Origin: Agelas oroides
Taxonomy: Eukaryota; Porifera; Demospongiae; Agelasida; Agelasidae
Direction: 5' to 3'
Length of the DNA stretch: 64,000 nucleotides
NCBI GenBank assembly: GCA_949130485.1
Contig: OX422188.1
Coordinates: 3,286,222 to 3,350,221 of the forward strand
Part shown: piece by piece, positions 54,702 through 62,526 of the stretch
Layout: each line of letters starts with the position of its first letter
How positions within the stretch are numbered: the first letter of the stretch is position 1
Made by a program: the position numbers and the translations under genes
The notes under the pieces: generated by a model
Seen by the model: only the letters and a program-made list of their open reading frames with translations
Databases searched by the model: none
Told to the model about the DNA's origin: nothing

Positions 54702-55764
54702 AAGCTCTAGCGCAACAATTGTTTCCGGTTTACGCCCACCATTGTACAACTGGTTTGTCTTCTTGAATGAAGCAAATCACTGTAGCAGCTGCTTCAGTAG
54801 CATATCGAAGAGCTACGTAGCCGTACAGGCGTACTACAAGCGACAAAAGCATGGAGGAAGGCCTGCGAAGTTTCTACGTCGTCGATCGCCGTACTCCATT
54901 GGCCACGCCCACCAAGAAGGCCATGGATACATTTTTTTCGCGACGCTTCCTGAATCAGGTAAACGACTTTAGCAACTCTCCTTACTATAAACAGCTTATC
55001 CAGTGGTTAGTCAAGGGGTTAACGTAAAGTATTCGTGACTATTACAAACGCCGGGGAGAGTTCGTACCGCGAAACGCCACAAAAAGTGACTTTCCAATAA
55101 GAGTTTCAACTCGCTATCCGTTAAGCTTTACAGCTTATGGCCAAAACTCTACGTAGCCCCCTCTAGCGACTGTTAAACTTTCGGGATCCACTTTGTTCAC
55201 CGCGCTTCATGCCCGATTACGTCATACGGCTTATAATTCGCACTTTGACCCCACGCTGATTAACCGAACTGGGAGCCGGAGCCGGAGCTGAGCTTGAGAG
55301 GCTAAGGAGTGACGTCACCACGCGCGATCCGAAAAAGTTATTGAAATTACGTAATAATAATTTTGGAATTAATTACATCATTGTTTGTAACGCAGCTCAG
55401 CTAGGGCTAGGCTGTATCTACGTTACGTTAGATCCATGAAGTGTTCAGTACCAGACAGAACAGGAAAAGATGTGCAGAGTGAGTTATCCAGTTGTGAAAC
55501 AATGCAGTCGAAGTGTGTGTGTTCCCAGTATAGATGGTTTTCATGGGGCGTGGCTTCACTTCCGGAGGGCAAAAGTCGGTGTCTGGGTTTAGTGCAGCTG
55601 CGTGCAAAATACAGGCTAGTAAGTGCTACATCGAGTCCTTACCATTAGTACCGAAAGATAAAAGAAGCTGGTTCTCTCAAGGTGAAAGGTCCGCTGTACA
55701 GCTGCCTATCGATCGCGCGTTTGCCCTCCGGAAGTAGGGCGCTTAATTGACATTTGGAAACCAT
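54702..55764. other. 3' flank of the OTU transposase gene
   Basis: It contains the left copy of the 44-bp inverted block (55183-55226). Plus-strand frames at 54742-54972 and 55436-55648 have no recognised domain. Confidence 0.45.
55183..55226 (+). repeat. Left copy of a perfect 44-bp inverted repeat
   Basis: It is identical, base for base, to the reverse complement of 60744-60787. It begins GGGATCCACTTTGTTCACCG and ends CGATTACGTCATA, and contains the palindrome-like GGATCC and a TTACGTCA (CRE-like) string. Confidence 0.9.
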
Positions 55765-58700
55765 CTATAGGAGTTCGAAGTGATGTGGGGTGTGCATGTT
55801 TGCAACAGGGTCTTCTTCCACTATCTCTGGAACTCTTAGATTGGCAGGGGTGGCTATCGGTTTGATAGCTTCCCAGTGGTATTTGGCTCCACTAGGATTG
55901 GTATAGCAGCAGTAAACAGGAACCTGGAACAGTGTTGCAGTAGCCATCAATTCCACTTGTGTCCCCCAAACACCTGGCCACAGCTGATGCTTAAGGTGGT
56001 CATGAAATGATGTCGCGTTAGCACTGGGGATAAACCGGCTCTCAAAAAGAGCTTTGTTCAGATTCTCAAACCTCACCAGTAGAGTACGAATGTCATCATG
56101 CTTGTCTTCATCACCTAGGGTGTGGAATGCCACAGCTCTGAATAGACAGTTGCCGTCTTTCTTGATACGCTTTACTGTGCGGAAGCTTTGAAGTAAAAAC
56201 TGATGAACACGTTGATTTTCATCACTCTTAGCTTGGGCACTTGCTGAATCCTGCAAGTTAAAAAATGACAACACACAACATCACTTCTGTACATTGTATG
56301 CATGTTCGTGTACAGTGTACTTAATACTTCCTACAGGGTTAATTAAGTCAGATCTACCTTTTGACTGTTGGCTGGTGGTACAAATGGCTTCAGTCCTAAA
56401 TAGAGCATAATATGATAGTAGTGATGGACTCTCTAGTCAAAATGTACCAGGGCCGTAGGAAGCAAGAAAAAACCTGCCCGGCCAAATTCCCATAAGGGAT
56501 GAGGGATAGCGTGCACGCCATAATCTAGGGGAGTCTGGGGGCATGCTCCCCCAGGAAATTTTTGAAAATTACTAAGACTGCTTCTGGTGGCTTCTCAGGC
56601 GCCAATTTCATTTTAGGGAAATGCAAACCATTGTAGATGAAAGCAGAGTCTTTCACATTGCCGGCGATCTTCGTCTTCCTCATCTTGATGGCTGTCACGC
56701 ACGTATGGCAGAAGGCTATGTCTGTAGTTGACTCGTAGTGTAGCCACTGTCACTTACTAAACCAAGATCCTTGAAAAGTGCAACTGAAAACTTTGGACTT
56801 GCCGAACTGGCGTCTTGGAAAGATATCACGCTCATGTTGGTGGGGTACTTCACCAATCTCGGGAAGACCAGTCTCACGTAGCCAGACTCTCACAAGGAGA
56901 GAGTGTGGGTATGCGAGACTACGGGAAGACAACTAGACTCAGCCATTCGCGATTCGACAGCGAGCACGTGTTCCGTTTTAACTTTGAACCTTGTACGGTT
57001 GTTCTAGCTCTCGTGCATGTGAGAGTCTGGCTTCACGAGACTAGCTTTCATGAGTGGCAGCGTGAAAGATAATTTTTTAATGCTTACAAATTAAACTGGT
57101 ACGGCCAAGGCCGTACCGGCCGTAGTGGCTCCTACGGGCCTGTGTACAGTGTGTTTACTAGTAAGTGGGAACTTACCAATTTCTTTGGTTGGGCCTGAAT
57201 CACTCTCATGTGAAATTGGTTTCATTTTGTTGGGGTGGTCTGTCAATCAGAAGGAGAAAGAAATGATAGCAAATTAATTACATTACCAAGAGTGAGTCCT
57301 ACCTGGCTTCACACATTTTCGTTGGGTGCAGCATTTCTTTTTTCTTCCTGGACCCCCAAACTTCTTCATATCCTTGCAGGTAATGCAACTCCCACAGTCC
57401 ATGGCCACACATCCTGAACACTCACCACAACGCCTGACACGTTTAGTTCCTGCACCAATGTTAGTAAAATCAAAGCCATGCAAAGCGCTAGCCTCTTCCC
57501 AGGCCCCAGCCAGCTTTCTGTTGCTTGCAGTATCTTTGTTCATGTGTGGGGAGAGCCTGGGAACAAGGCTAGCGAAGTGCATGATTTTTCATTTTCACTG
57601 ACCTGCTCTTGCATGTGATGCTTGTACTTCCTCAGTCGTATTACCAACATTCTATGGTTTGTGTTGTGATCAGGCAACCAATATGAATACTAATGTTTAG
57701 GATATTTTAATGTAATGAACTTACCTCCTGATTAGCTTTACGTAGACGGTCAGCTTTGATACCAAAACGGTTTCTGTATGAACATGGAGCCCGCTTCTTG
57801 CGCCTCCAAGATGGCAGAGATGAACACCTAAGAACAGCTTTTGCCTTCCAAACCCTCCGTCGCATGTTGATAACCTGTCGATGGTCCCTACATGTGGGAT
57901 GCAACAATTCAAAAAGATTTCAATTCCAATCTTGTAAGTACCACCTTACCTTCACAGGAATCTGCTGCTGGAGAGAAGCTTGCAAGGAGCTTTCAGAGCC
58001 AGGAGTGGTCTGTACTTCACCACTGAGATCAGGAATTGGCTGGGGAGTATCTTCAGCATTATGTGATACAGTGGAGAACTGGGCAAAGTATGCATCAGTG
58101 GCATCCTTGTCTGTTGATAGGTATGCACTGTCTCTGTATGTTTGTGGTAATGCATCCCAGCACCATGCTTGTCTAAGTCGAAACACTGCAAAGAAGTGTT
58201 TGCATGGGATGTGCCATCTAGTCCAGTCTTTACAGGAACAAGATGGCATCTGTTCCTGTGAGTTTCTGCCGAAGTCGACCATGTACTGTCCCCCGTCTTT
58301 CCTCTGTATAATGAATGCTCCTTCCTTCTCTCCATGAATCAAATCTTTGTCATGGTACTTATTGCTTCGTGACTGCCGGTCAAGGCAGTGAAGGATGACT
58401 GATCTGGGTCTTCCTCGCAAGAAGCGTGGTACAAAATCGTTGTACCGTCTATACCATTCAGCAGTCTTCAAGTTTGGCAGTACATAGCTCTGTTGAGCTT
58501 CTGGCAGAAACCTCTCCACCAAAAGAGAGACCAGTGCTGACAAAGTGCTAGCTCTCTGTTTTGACATGTACTTGTATTTTAGCACTTTGTTTTGTGCCTC
58601 AGTACCATTGTTAGTGTCAACAGCTGCATGGAATTCATTGTCTCTGTAGGCACGTGCCCATCTCTGTTTTAATGGTAAAGACATAACAGTGTGCATTAAA

Positions 58701-60543
58701 ATAACTTCCTGTGATTACTGTTACAGCTTTATCAAACAGCTACCTATTCACCCAAGTAGGGAAATTCCCTTGTTGACTGGCATAACTTACTTGTGGATGA
58801 TTAAGCCAGTTTGAGGTCAACCAGTTCTGAACATGCGCATTCTTCTTCCACACAGCAGACTCCTTGAGCACAGAGACAGCCTTCTGGTAGTTGACATCAA
58901 CCGCAGAGTCATCTGATCCAGGTGGTGCCCAGGCGCAAGCACGAAGCAACTCAAGTAGGCAGTCAGCATCACTCCGCTCCAAAGCATTTTTCCTGTCTTG
59001 TACCCACCGTGTCCATGCCTGTTCCCTGTGAAAGTCACAACCATAGACTGTTGTACTAGGAAATGCCTGTTTCAGTGCCGAGAACTCAGCATCAGAAAAG
59101 TCACAGAGAAAGAAAGGTGGGTTCCAATTGCTATTCCATTCCTTTAGGACATTCAGTGCCTCTGAAATACATTCCATACTTTCAGATTGCACAATGAACT
59201 GTGCTACAACACTGTAACCCACATTGGTGCGTACACACACAAAGAAAAGGGGTAGTTCATACTTCATTGTACGATATGTAGCATCAATCAGGCTAATGTG
59301 GTTTCCATATCTGGTGAGAATTTCTCTTTGCCACTGTTGCTGATGAACCCACAACAGAGTTTGTGTCAGTTTGACTGCACAAGAGGTCTCTCCACTCATG
59401 GTTTCAACTGACTCGGTTTCATTGACATATGGTCGAAATAAGTGGTATTCATCTGAATTCAGCCTTTTCCACTCCTCAATTTTCAAGGCTAAATTTTCTT
59501 GATCAAACTTTGATAGCTGAATTGCAATTTTAGCCTTGTACATGTGGTTACGGATGTCGGCAGTAGTAGGGTAGTATGCTCGGTCAGTGGGAGATGGTTT
59601 TGAGGCAGAGCACTGATTCCTTACATACTCTCTCAGTGCTCTCTGAACTTCGTTTGGATCAGTTGAGCCTTCTCGTACCAAGTCTTCAATTTTCTTTGAA
59701 ATGAGGGGATGTACCTTTTGTGCAGGTCCAGATTCTATGCCAGTTGGGTGAGACTTCTCATGTGATTCATGTATGGGTAAAGAAACGAAAAACTTAGTGA
59801 CCATATCCACAGGTTTTCCCTCTTCCAATGCCTGCTTTAGAGCATGAAGTTTACTTTCCCGCAACTGTCTAAGTTGTTTGCTCTTTAGGCATTTGGTCTC
59901 TGTTGCTGAGAAAGCATACTCGGGGTAGAGCCTATACTCACAAATTTCAATGTGTGCATAACATCCCAGTTTGCGTGTTCCCTGGAGGTAGATTCGACTA
60001 GATGTTCTCTCTCTCTTCTTGAAGTAATGCGGTCCAAATTGGCATTCTCTCGTTTCCTTTCGCACAACCTCAAAAGGTGTGTTCTCAAACGATACACCCG
60101 AACAACTCCACATTATCCGTGATTTCCCCTGTAAATCACATGTGAAAGCAATTACTGTATGAAGTGTACTGGGTAGTTCACCAGTCATTTTATCAGTTGC
60201 CTGGACTTTCAATCAACAATATTATGAATCATCCAAAGCTACAAAAGCTTGCATGGACTGGGCATCATACTACACAACTAGGATCCTATAAGTGAACACT
60301 TACAACACTCTTTTTGGATTCATTTTTCTCATCCATTCCAGGTGCAGGTTGTTTCCTCTGTGACCTCCGGATACCCCATGTTGTTACAGTATCTCGCCGA
60401 TGCAGTTCAAGTGTACCCTCCAAGTCTTCAACATAGCCTTCATAGTACGTACCAACTTTTTTTAGGCCTTCAGCCCAAACTGGCAAGCTAGACATCGTTG
60501 AACTCTGTATCATGTAGTATAAATTGTTTTTGTCATTAACCAT
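55765..60543 (-). CDS. MULE-type transposase fused to SWIM, CXXC and OTU domains, nine exons
   Basis: Exons from 5' to 3': 60543-60304, 60200-58752, 58708-57950, 57874-57725, 57651-57603, 57449-57303, 57239-57177, 56395-56358, 56250-55765. Introns are GT-AG, all phases agree, and there is no stop: 1,126 residues. The start may instead be 60495. Residues ~20-55 and 133-175 (LQGTRKLGCYAHIEI) resemble the CARF/ALS2CR8 DNA-binding region. The DDE core has D386 (SLIDATY), D450 (CDFSDAEFSAL), C468/H471 and E600 (NNGTEAQNK). The SWIM finger is C720, C722, C732, H734. The basic segment 817-866 could target the nucleus. CXXC residues are 890-928, with the KFGG motif. OTU shows KKDGNCLFRA (C1000) and HFELL (H1122). 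Known roles are transposition, unmethylated-CpG binding and deubiquitination; their combined role here is inference. Two MITEs occupy introns. Confidence 0.8.
56448..57142. mobile_element. hAT5-like MITE copy 2 inside an intron of the OTU transposase gene
   Basis: The left end CAGGGCCGTAGGAAGC and the inverse of the right end (CAGGCCCGTAGGAGCC) pair. The flanking TGTAC is duplicated exactly on both sides (56443-56447 and 57143-57147). The interior begins with a GGGGGCATGCTCCCCC palindrome. It lies wholly within the intron between exons 57239-57177 and 56395-56358. Confidence 0.85.
57489..57571. mobile_element. 83-bp TAGCCTC...GAGGCTA MITE in a transposase intron
   Basis: TAGCCTCTTCCCAGGCCCCA at the left pairs with GGGAGAGCCTGGGAACAAGGCTA-type sequence at the right. 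The flanking nine bases GCAAAGCGC and GCGAAGTGC match at seven positions, a decayed 9-bp target duplication. It is contained in the intron 57450-57602. Confidence 0.75.
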
Positions 60544-60743
60544 GTCTTGTACTACTTATAAATTCATCAAGTTAAATCAAGTAACTTATGTATCAACATG
60601 TACCTGCACAGAGCTCTTCAAGCTGAGAGGTTTGGACAACTTTCCAGTGTACGATGCCGTCGACTAGTACGTTGCTGACTTCGATTTTCCCGCTAATTTG
60701 CCGCGCACGTGGCTGCGCACCTTAACCGGGTCAAAGTGCAGAA

Positions 60744-60787
60744 TATGACGTAATCGGGCATGAAGCGCGGTGAACAAAGTGGATCCC
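60744..60787 (-). repeat. Right copy of the perfect 44-bp inverted repeat
   Basis: This is the reverse complement of 55183-55226. It lies about 200 bases upstream of the transposase first ATG, a position where it could overlap the promoter. Confidence 0.9.
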
Positions 60788-61193
60788 TTAAACTTTCCCC
60801 TCGCCAAGAATGGAGTATGTGGCTCTCGTACCGTACGAGTGAAACGTGATGAAAATTGTAAAACTCAACCACTGCTCTCCGCGCTATTTTCTGTAGCACT
60901 GTATCAAGATTTGTTACACAGATAGTACTTGCCATACAGTACTTGAATATCAAGTTTGGCTGTAAGTGATTGCACAGCTAGTAAGATGAGACATTTTATA
61001 TATGGCAGATAATTTATTGTGAAATTATTCACCCGCCACCTCAAGTGCTGCAAGGAGATACCCTGAAATAAATTGAACTTTCAGGAAATACCCTATTAGG
61101 GGGTACTTCCGGGCAGAAATCCTCAAAGTTTTGAGTCTGTCAAGTTATAATCCAACGGTTCAATAAGCAAAAAAACTGAATGCGATACTGTGC
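60788..61193. other. Interval between divergent transposase and kinase genes
   Basis: About 650 bases separate the two start codons, which point away from each other. It includes the outer ACCCGCCACCT end at 61031. No clear core promoter element was identified. Confidence 0.4.
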
Positions 61194-62090
61194 ATGCGTG
61201 CTGTGACAACCCTACATGTCTATAGCGACAAAGATATGGCAGGGAGAAGGCAAGCTTTCAACCGCAATCCCGAATTGCAGCGTTTTGTGCTGACTGGCGT
61301 GCGCCCCACGGGTAAACAGCTAGGAGTGGGTTCTTACGGTAGTGTGGAGGAGCTGGAAGTGAATGGAGTAACGTGTGCGGGCAAGCGGCTACACGAAGTG
61401 CTGGTTGAGCAGGGCAACGCCGGCGTACCCAACATCGTACGCAAGTATCTACAGGAATGCCAGGTGACTCCAATGACAGACAGCAGAATTATTTTGCTAG
61501 AGTTAACCAAACTGATATGCCAAACTCTAGCACAGATGTTGCAGCATAGCAGGCCAAATATATACGCTGCATGCGTATGAATGTCTGGCACATAGAGTCG
61601 ACACGTGATTGTTGTTAGTTTGATATCACTGTAGGTAATGACTGAGATGCGGCATCCACACATTGTGCAGTTCCTAGGGCTGTGTTTCCTGGAAGAGTCA
61701 GCACTGCCAGTGCTGGTGATGGAGCGGCTGGACAGCAGTCTGGACGAGTTGCTGGAAGGAACCCCTAGTCTTCCCCTCACCCTCAAGCGATCCCTGCTAG
61801 CAGATGTGGCACGAGGATTGCTCTACTTGCATACGCGCATCCCTCCCATTGTGCATAGAGATTTGTCTGCTCGAAATGTTCTCCTTACATCATCACTAGT
61901 GGCCAAGATCAGCGACCTGGGCAATGCCCGCATTGTGAACCTACGACCAGGCCAGCTGGCTATGACCCTCACCCATCTTCCTGGTACCATGGTCTACATG
62001 GCTCCTGAAGCATTTAGTGAAGGTTCACACTATGGTCCCAAGCTGGACATATTCTCATTTGGTCACCTTGCCCTCTTCACTCTTACGCAG
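61194..62090 (+). CDS. Protein kinase (TKL/tyrosine-kinase-like), 3' end not found
   Basis: Exon 1 is 61194-61463 and exon 2 is 61635-62090 (GT-AG, phase 0), giving 242 residues. The glycine loop is GVGSYGSV (44-51), the ATP lysine is in AGKRLH (K64) and the alpha-C glutamate is in LQECQ (E88). The catalytic loop is VHRDLSARNVLL (163-174) and the metal-binding motif is SDLG (D184; DLG rather than DFG). The activation segment ends in MVYMAPEAF (209-217), and LDIFSFG (228-234) is subdomain IX. All catalytic residues are present, so activity is plausible. RDLSARN resembles tyrosine kinases (RDLAARN) more than serine kinases. The C-lobe ends at a GTCAGT donor after LFTLTQ. The next acceptor-like site (62310, AVEGSFIKRG...) gives no kinase-like sequence. 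The start may instead be the ATG at 61236. Confidence 0.8.
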
Positions 62091-62526
62091 GTCAGTGAAC
62101 TGTTGATCCATTATCGGAAGGTTGCATGCAGTCTCGGAAGTTTAAATTGATGTCCCATTACAAATGAGTGGCTTTACCAAAGAAGTAAAACAGCACAATC
62201 ATATGAAACTACCTACAATTCTGCATGTAGTGATCCAAAACATTCAATAAAAAGACGGTTAGTGTGTTGAGCTCACAACTTAATAAAGATACGTAAATAT
62301 CTGCTTTCATAGGCGGTGGAAGGTAGTTTCATTAAGAGGGGGCTGAGCACGCTGATTCTAGAAGTGGTAAGGGATGCTTTCCCAGAAAATGTTCTGAAAT
62401 TTCCATGCTCTGAGGTTGAATCTGTATCTTGCGACATAATGAACAAAGAATTAAAATCAGTAATGTTCATGTTTTGGAGCAGTAAAAATTCTAAGTTTGC
62501 TCCACATTGCTTGCCTTACAGCTAAT
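62091..62526. other. Probable intron or broken 3' part of the kinase gene
   Basis: A frame at 62316-62525 follows a TTTCATAG acceptor-like site in the right phase, but its sequence is not kinase-like. The expected helices of subdomains X-XI are not found before a transposon begins at 62527. Confidence 0.4.

Follow-up and report, generated by a model that had tools for sequence, protein, structure and literature searches.

The locus

We analyzed a 64,000-nucleotide stretch of the genome of the sponge Agelas oroides (GenBank assembly GCA_949130485.1, contig OX422188.1, positions 3,286,222 to 3,350,221 of the forward strand), referred to as the window in the following. It contains a mobile element that is almost certainly a cut-and-paste DNA transposon of the Mutator-like (MULE) type, with five protein domains inside. 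With good confidence, this MULE carries one spliced gene, which joins an ALS2CR8/CaRF-like domain, an RNase H-like DDE core, a SWIM-like motif, a basic linker, a type-I CXXC finger and an OTU domain. The features of the element, including a nested miniature inverted-repeat transposable element (MITE), are as follows; labels such as L009 denote other places in this genome.

55173–55182, no strand: target site duplication, left copy, TTAAACTTTC; its 10 bp recur unchanged at the right end
55183–55251, plus strand: terminal inverted repeat at the 3' end of the gene; the first 44 nt equal the other end exactly, the rest is gapped
55529–55769, no strand: 241-bp MITE with ends TATAGATGG...CCATCTATA and a TA target, at the end of the OTU exon; absent there in L009 and L011
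55765–56250, minus strand: exon 9, OTU domain with DGNC at residues 945–948, ending short of the catalytic His
56358–56395, minus strand: exon 8, linker
57177–57239, minus strand: exon 7, linker
57303–57449, minus strand: exon 6, CXXC zinc finger (residues 832–876); the phase-1 intron ahead of the exon is conserved
57603–57651, minus strand: exon 5, linker
57725–57874, minus strand: exon 4, basic linker with a motif near YRNRxGxKAxRLRK
57950–58663, minus strand: exon 3, which completes the DDE core (E548) and encodes the SWIM-like CxC...CxH (residues 668–682)
58791–60128, minus strand: exon 2, ALS2CR8/CaRF-like domain and MULE transposase core (D362, D423)
60304–60543, minus strand: exon 1, opening with the start codon at 60543; in L009, all 240 bases are the same
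60728–60787, minus strand: terminal inverted repeat at the 5' end of the gene
60788–60797, no strand: target site duplication, right copy, TTAAACTTTC; the same 10 bp as on the left

Both ends are closed by an inverted repeat that starts GGGATCCACTTTGTTCACCGCG and is perfect over 44 nt. Since TTAAACTTTC lies directly outside these inverted ends, the element spans positions 55183–60787. Its target site duplication (TSD) of 10 bp fits the range of about 8–11 bp that is tabulated for MULEs (Dupeyron et al., 2019; PMC6446971), and the same is true of seven of the 11 other loci with anchored ends. Terminal inverted repeats (TIRs) with a perfect 10-bp TSD, taken as the best among several offsets tried near the repeat ends, are thus found at eight of 12 end-anchored loci (the window, L009, L012, L013, L016, L017, L018 and L019); the repeats of all eight start with GGG and carry TTCAC about 13 nt inward. 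One of them, L016, is an internally deleted derivative, in which the gene start, CXXC and OTU lie between the ends and the MULE core is gone. That other loci repeat the inverted ends, the 10-bp TSD and the gene order in this way makes the arrangement in the window more than chance. It counts against the transposon reading that no TSD was found at the other four end-anchored loci, L011, L014, L015 and L020, all of which do have inverted repeats. Among 17 loci scanned for ends, L021–L024 and L026–L028 showed no inverted repeat that clearly exceeds shuffled sequences; that of L022 is slightly above them, and no exact TSD was found there.

Splicing of the nine exons yields an open reading frame (ORF) of 1,074 residues in one frame with eight GT-AG introns (60543..55765, minus strand). 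This reproduces the start, end, strand, nine exons, eight canonical junctions and single frame that a preliminary description of this DNA had proposed. For exon 4, an acceptor at 57887 was rejected, as it breaks the frame, which the acceptor at 57874 restores. In Pfam, the protein matches ALS2CR8 (PF15299) at residues 78–280 (E=8.9e-28, 98.2 bits against a cut-off of 28.9), the first residues of this domain being encoded at the end of exon 1, MULE at residues 360–447 (E=8.3e-12, 45.8 bits against 27.6), zf-CXXC at residues 832–876 (E=4.6e-11, above the cut-off) and OTU at residues 944–1035 (E=3.5e-7, above the cut-off). The SWIM match at residues 666–687 stays just below its cut-off (18.5 against 19.6 bits), which speaks against this assignment; the CxC...CxH residues are nevertheless retained in 15–16 of the 16 rows that cover them in the alignment of relatives. 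The profile search suggested in the preliminary description has borne out MULE, zf-CXXC and OTU, together with ALS2CR8, and left SWIM borderline. The KFGG-bearing CXXC pattern and the OTU motif DGNC that it had pointed out were both found, the finger reading KKFGG and matching zf-CXXC. Its DDE residues D386, D450 and E600 need to be replaced: relatives conserve D362 (20 of 20 covered rows), D423 (18 of 19) and E548 (18 of 19) instead. The transposase exon had no match at E <= 1 in the PDB, and no relative of it was found among viral contigs.

Truncation of the window copy by a MITE

The gene had been described as intact, with a C-terminal HFE in the OTU domain; neither intactness nor a reading of HFE as the catalytic His can be upheld. 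The 241-bp MITE breaks the OTU exon at HFELL and supplies the last codons and the stop codon of the window gene, whereas the OTU exons of L009 and L011 run beyond HFELL to ...THFDCIV... before their stop. HFE is aligned upstream of H[FY]D, which we take to be the expected catalytic His motif of OTU proteases, and it is H[FY]D that the MITE has cut off. The corresponding column holds His in 22 of the 28 rows that have a residue there (34 rows aligned). The window OTU thus keeps its catalytic Asp and Cys and has lost the His, so that deubiquitination is unlikely for this copy, whose OTU is very probably inactive. The transposase core and the CXXC finger of the window copy are still open reading, and there are family copies without this MITE. 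The MITE is present in many near-identical copies in this genome; nine of them, that of the window included, share the top full-length score (among the best 40 of 741 candidates), and the MITE has therefore probably been active recently.

A recurrent and diversified family

The preliminary description had suggested a search for the same architecture and, as far as this genome is concerned (259 Mb, 141 contigs), such a search revealed a recurrent, diversified family. The following counts are per match, with recent and degenerate copies included, and the match lists hold the best 150 of 194 candidates for MULE and the best 95 of 243 for the transposase exon. We found 82 matches for the CXXC exon, 77 for the OTU exon, 69 for ALS2CR8 and 119 for MULE. 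An OTU match follows on the same strand, at most 4 kb downstream, at 55 of the 82 CXXC matches and is in the wrong order or on the wrong strand at two; 26 of the 82 have OTU downstream plus MULE upstream, among the MULE matches listed. The 69 ALS2CR8 matches correspond to 62 loci, of which 41 have CXXC or OTU downstream and 34 have both. Among the listed MULE matches, ALS2CR8 lies upstream of 27 of the 28 that are accompanied by CXXC, but of only 8 of the 87 that have neither CXXC nor OTU.

The family comprises nine lineages with 46–60% transposase identity. Eight of these carry the full order ALS2CR8, MULE, SWIM, CXXC, OTU; the ninth, L020, has CXXC and no OTU match. CXXC and OTU have both been kept, then, across lineages that are only about half identical in protein. 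Judged from these recurrent matches, the five-domain architecture is real, recurrent and diversified. Some of the results do not fit this picture: 27 of the 82 CXXC matches have no OTU match downstream, 21 of the 62 ALS2CR8 loci lack both CXXC and OTU, and a single acquisition followed by joint descent is not supported. In a Mantel test of joint descent with one copy per lineage, the correlation was r=-0.04 for CXXC (p=0.57, n=9) and r=0.25 for OTU (p=0.19, n=8), and the higher values obtained with near copies (0.71 for CXXC, n=13; 0.56 for OTU, n=11) were driven by recent copies; the test is uninformative because the lineages are almost equally distant from one another.

Two near copies are damaged. 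L011 (C18:4054000-4063000), whose exons 1–2 are almost identical to those of the window, has a deletion that starts inside exon 3 and reaches almost to the end of exon 6, by which SWIM and CXXC are lost and OTU is kept. L010 has a stop and a replaced OTU end.

Conservation and relatives of the CXXC and OTU domains

In 43 stretches (L009–L050 and the window), we found CXXC in 42 and OTU in 37; the OTU alignment has 34 rows, as L027, L040 and L046 were dropped for being shorter than 120 residues. The CXXC finger has eight zinc-cysteine columns, and the seven that were counted are kept in 41–42 of 41–42 rows. The eighth zinc Cys, outside the counted range, is visible in the alignment and missing in some rows, and an additional Cys next to the seventh is present in just 22 of 41 rows. 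In the KFGG loop, K is found in 30, F in 34 and the two G in 39 and 40 of 42 rows. By sequence, the nearest solved structures are the fingers of KMT2B, KDM2B, FBXL19, KDM2A and KMT2A, and we conclude from these similarities that the domain is a type-I (KFGG) finger, the kind that reads unmethylated CpG.

The OTU domain retains the catalytic Asp in 32 of 33 rows, the Cys in 31 of 33 and the His in 22 of 28. Its nearest solved relative is OTUD5 (E=3.4e-7), with a match that ends before the catalytic His. Given that the three residues are mostly kept, deubiquitination is plausible for the family, and the domain is likely to be an active deubiquitinase in those relatives that keep the His.

We also estimated the ratio of nonsynonymous to synonymous substitution rates (dN/dS) by counting in 17 pairs. 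In nine within-lineage pairs, the OTU domain gave values of 0.13–0.78, based on few changes, and one within-lineage OTU pair had no synonymous change. Three deep pairs (L009/L016, L015/L018 and L018/L019) have a saturated dS and still a dN of only 0.54–0.56 in OTU and 0.33–0.51 in CXXC, which indicates constraint on both domains. Left out were the pairs L015/L033, window/L042 and L009/L017 as well as the CXXC values of L012/L028 and L034/L035 (stop-codon rows mis-registered).

Insertion sites

A 72-nt end piece of the element gave 41 matches in the genome (best 40 of 183 candidates scored). Six of these are the ends of three long copies, two belong to one short element and 33 are others, which yields 34 further places. 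We used 32 of them, leaving out C3:2481304 and C1:6844886, and dropped L097, which overlaps the L020 element, to arrive at 31. Observed/expected CpG (CpG o/e) was measured over 400 bp outside the matched end; the outer flank alone was taken for 20 of the 32 places, and the near-duplicates L105 and L106 were both kept. For comparison, we used 20 control places, which are hand-picked round coordinates rather than random ones and of which at least four are repetitive (L055, L060, L066 and L068), and 12 of the 39 other listed copies of the TA-target MITE, with one flank each.

The flanks of the 31 family ends have a mean CpG o/e of 0.94, compared with 0.39 at the 20 control places (p=2e-8) and 0.66 at the 12 sites of the unrelated MITE (p=0.006). 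Values of at least 0.75 are reached by 26 of 31 family flanks, 4 of 60 control windows and 4 of 12 MITE flanks. The flanks of the eight TSD-bounded copies are shifted as well (0.78 against 0.43, p=6e-5). The background is low, at about 0.4–0.5 in the window and the 20 control places, which points to CpG methylation in this host; CpG is also scarce in the bodies of the eight elements.

At 12 of the further places, which we inspected at length, both ends were recognized in eight, and five of these eight have a perfect 9–10 bp TSD. Seven of the eight short elements measure 369–384 bp and one 144 bp. At the other four places, the second end is weaker in three (5 of 43 mismatches) and missing in the fourth. 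The inspected elements (L071–L082; e.g. L073 at 509–878) are short non-autonomous derivatives with one end like that of the window and the other starting GGTATTTACTTTGTTCACC; the seven longer ones contain telomere-like CCCTAA repeats.

CpG-rich flanks are what insertion guided by the CXXC finger would predict, and a broad preference for open chromatin might produce the same result. That the insertion profile reflects such a general preference of MULEs or DNA transposons, to which CXXC adds nothing, is a serious alternative whose chances we put a little below even. Plant Mu elements are known to favor hypomethylated 5' gene regions, and the flanks of the unrelated MITE also exceed the controls (0.66 against 0.39, p=0.005), so that part of the bias is not family-specific. 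However, the family is more CpG-biased than the MITE, both in the mean and in the proportion of flanks at or above 0.75. Several further points weaken the case for the finger. The controls, namely the 20 places and the MITE, include no MULE that lacks CXXC. Such a control was tried and rejected: L001–L004 have inverted repeats of only 11–12 nt, and L005–L008, degenerate MULEs of another kind that cluster on one contig (C1:5.4-6.2 Mb), have long inverted repeats and no TSD that we could find. As the boundaries of L001–L008 were not found, they are invalid for this purpose; the provisional flanks of L005–L008 have a CpG o/e of 0.64–0.70 which, if their ends are right, argues against family specificity. 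Moreover, mobilization of the 31 places by the family is assumed from their shared end sequence, with both ends recognized in eight of the 12 inspected.

A second alternative is that CXXC recognizes the CpG-bearing inverted repeats of the element itself and acts as a methylation sensor, allowing movement only if the ends are unmethylated. In all eight TSD-bounded elements, the 60+60 nt of the ends have a higher CpG o/e than the body (0.41–1.29 against 0.27–0.47), with 3 to 10 CpGs in the two ends together, which keeps binding to the ends alive as an explanation. However, some elements have few CpGs in their ends (3 in L016, 4 in L013 and L018), and sensing at the ends alone leaves the CpG-rich flanks unexplained; we find this reading possible but rather doubtful. 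Between these alternatives, we consider the chances evenly balanced that the CXXC finger contributes to target choice.

One protein or two

The later exons might encode a separate CXXC-OTU protein next to a transposase made from exons 1–3, as in maize MuDR, which has a two-gene layout. MULEs with one or two ORFs are tabulated in print (PMC6446971), yet several observations make two genes in one transposon improbable here. The exons join in phase without a stop. Furthermore, a splice acceptor lies 17 or 20 nt ahead of the first CXXC Cys codon at 29 of 42 loci, compared with a mean of 2.5 loci for other offsets, and the phase-1 intron before CXXC is therefore conserved in most loci. The motif near YRNRxGxKAxRLRK was found between the SWIM and CXXC exons at each of 12 loci, of which two are near copies (15-kb search, E <= 0.05, the weakest at E=0.046), whereas 40 kb of sequence from control places gave nothing better than E=0.97 and 20 shuffled linkers matched none of the 12 loci in 19 runs and one in a single run. 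In the near copies L009 and L010, all eight junctions are kept and the indels in exons 1–8 are multiples of three. Finally, a single open frame of 231 residues contains both CXXC and OTU in L013, whose OTU is without the usual end. On the other side, L018 has stops between CXXC and OTU, and 13 of the 42 loci have no acceptor at the conserved offset. The evidence for one protein is strong but not final, and we hold the one-protein reading of these sequences with considerable confidence.

The multi-exon structure and the regulatory-type domains might be explained by a domesticated host gene that has come to be flanked by transposon ends, but this is extremely improbable, considering that the near copy L009 lies at a different place, on another contig, where it has TIRs of its own and a TSD unlike that of the window, that L011 has TIRs (TSD not found) and is internally deleted, that L010 has its stop and replaced OTU end, that there are many diverged relatives and that a MITE interrupts the window copy. 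The TIR/TSD boundaries, the conserved exon order and the conserved intron position support the placement of all five domains in one transposon-borne gene.

Proposed mechanism and relation to known systems

In the mechanism that we propose, the N-terminal and SWIM parts of the protein would bind the inverted repeats, and the DDE core would excise and insert the element by cut and paste with a 10-bp stagger, a step supported by the anatomy of the element. The CXXC finger would tether the complex to unmethylated CpG-rich DNA and thereby steer insertion there, as supported by the domain type and the insertion sites. The OTU domain might trim ubiquitin off the transposase itself, off chromatin (ubiquitylated H2A at CpG islands) or off repair proteins; we infer this activity because the catalytic residues are conserved in relatives. 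Ubiquitylated H2A is laid by Polycomb complexes that are recruited via the CXXC finger of KDM2B. The protein could thus be a transposase with a built-in reader of epigenetic addresses, in which CXXC leads to unmethylated CpG islands and OTU removes ubiquitin there or protects the transposase, a combination that we propose tentatively and to which we give somewhat less than even chances.

The preliminary description knew of no family with exactly this order, and our literature matches agree with this. No CXXC-bearing MULE or transposase was found among those listed (open-licence papers, by title and start of abstract), but OTU domains have been described in a Hydra MULE and in Ginger1. The former, MuDR-6_HM, is a cnidarian element of group 14 with one ORF and an 'Ovarian Tumour Gene' (Dupeyron et al., 2019; PMC6446971). 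It resembles the window element in being a MULE with an OTU gene but differs in that no zinc finger is listed for it, a comparison by description and not by sequence; the words OTU, CXXC, sponge and Porifera are absent from the main text of that paper. In Ginger1, too, a DDE transposase carries an OTU (or Ulp1) protease at its C terminus, but the core is Gypsy-integrase-like instead of MULE, and CXXC does not occur in the text of the report (PMC2836005). Its authors suggested that the ubiquitin pathway is involved in transposition, with OTU and Ulp1 acting in repair during or after it (PMC2836005). Mutator transposons with Ulp1, from hydra, lancelet, Arabidopsis, maize, rice and melon, also combine a MULE with a cysteine protease specific for ubiquitin-like proteins, but this is Ulp1 rather than OTU, and CXXC goes unmentioned in that text (PMC2836005). 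The main text of a 2026 survey of arthropod MULEs contains neither OTU nor CXXC (PMC13359780).

Among host proteins, the fingers nearest to the window CXXC are those of KMT2A/B, KDM2A/B, FBXL19, CFP1 and DNMT1, with KFGG shared in the alignments of KMT2B, KDM2B and FBXL19; unlike the window protein, these are chromatin proteins and not transposases. OTUD5 (DUBA), which has the solved OTU nearest to that of the window, is a host deubiquitinase without transposase or CXXC. The transcription factor CaRF (ALS2CR8) shares the PF15299 domain, which in the window protein sits on a DDE core. From the comparison with elements in print, OTU in a MULE is known in kind, while the fusion of CXXC with an ALS2CR8-MULE-SWIM core appears to be new.

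If the proposed mechanism is true, a MULE lineage equipped with both a reader of the CpG-island type and a deubiquitinase would exemplify chromatin-guided integration in nature, in which one protein holds the means both to find permissive chromatin and to edit it. We regard the CpG-rich insertion profile as the most interesting addition. Why certain DNA transposons end up in CpG-rich DNA becomes a question that is testable via one small finger. This finger suggests itself as a part for insertion systems that prefer open CpG islands, and it adds CXXC to the chromatin domains exchanged between transposons and hosts.

Other features of the window

Intron 7 contains a CpG-richer insert (56400–57150) with inverted repeats at 56858–56894 and 57018–57054, probably an older nested element; a short ORF inside this intron has no Pfam match. 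On the plus strand, a protein kinase gene lies at 61236–62150. Its first stretch, 61236–61466, has no Pfam match, and 61635–62150 matches Pkinase with E=1.5e-24. As the likely start codon of the kinase is situated about 440 bp past the right end of the element, the transposon has probably inserted into the upstream region of this gene.

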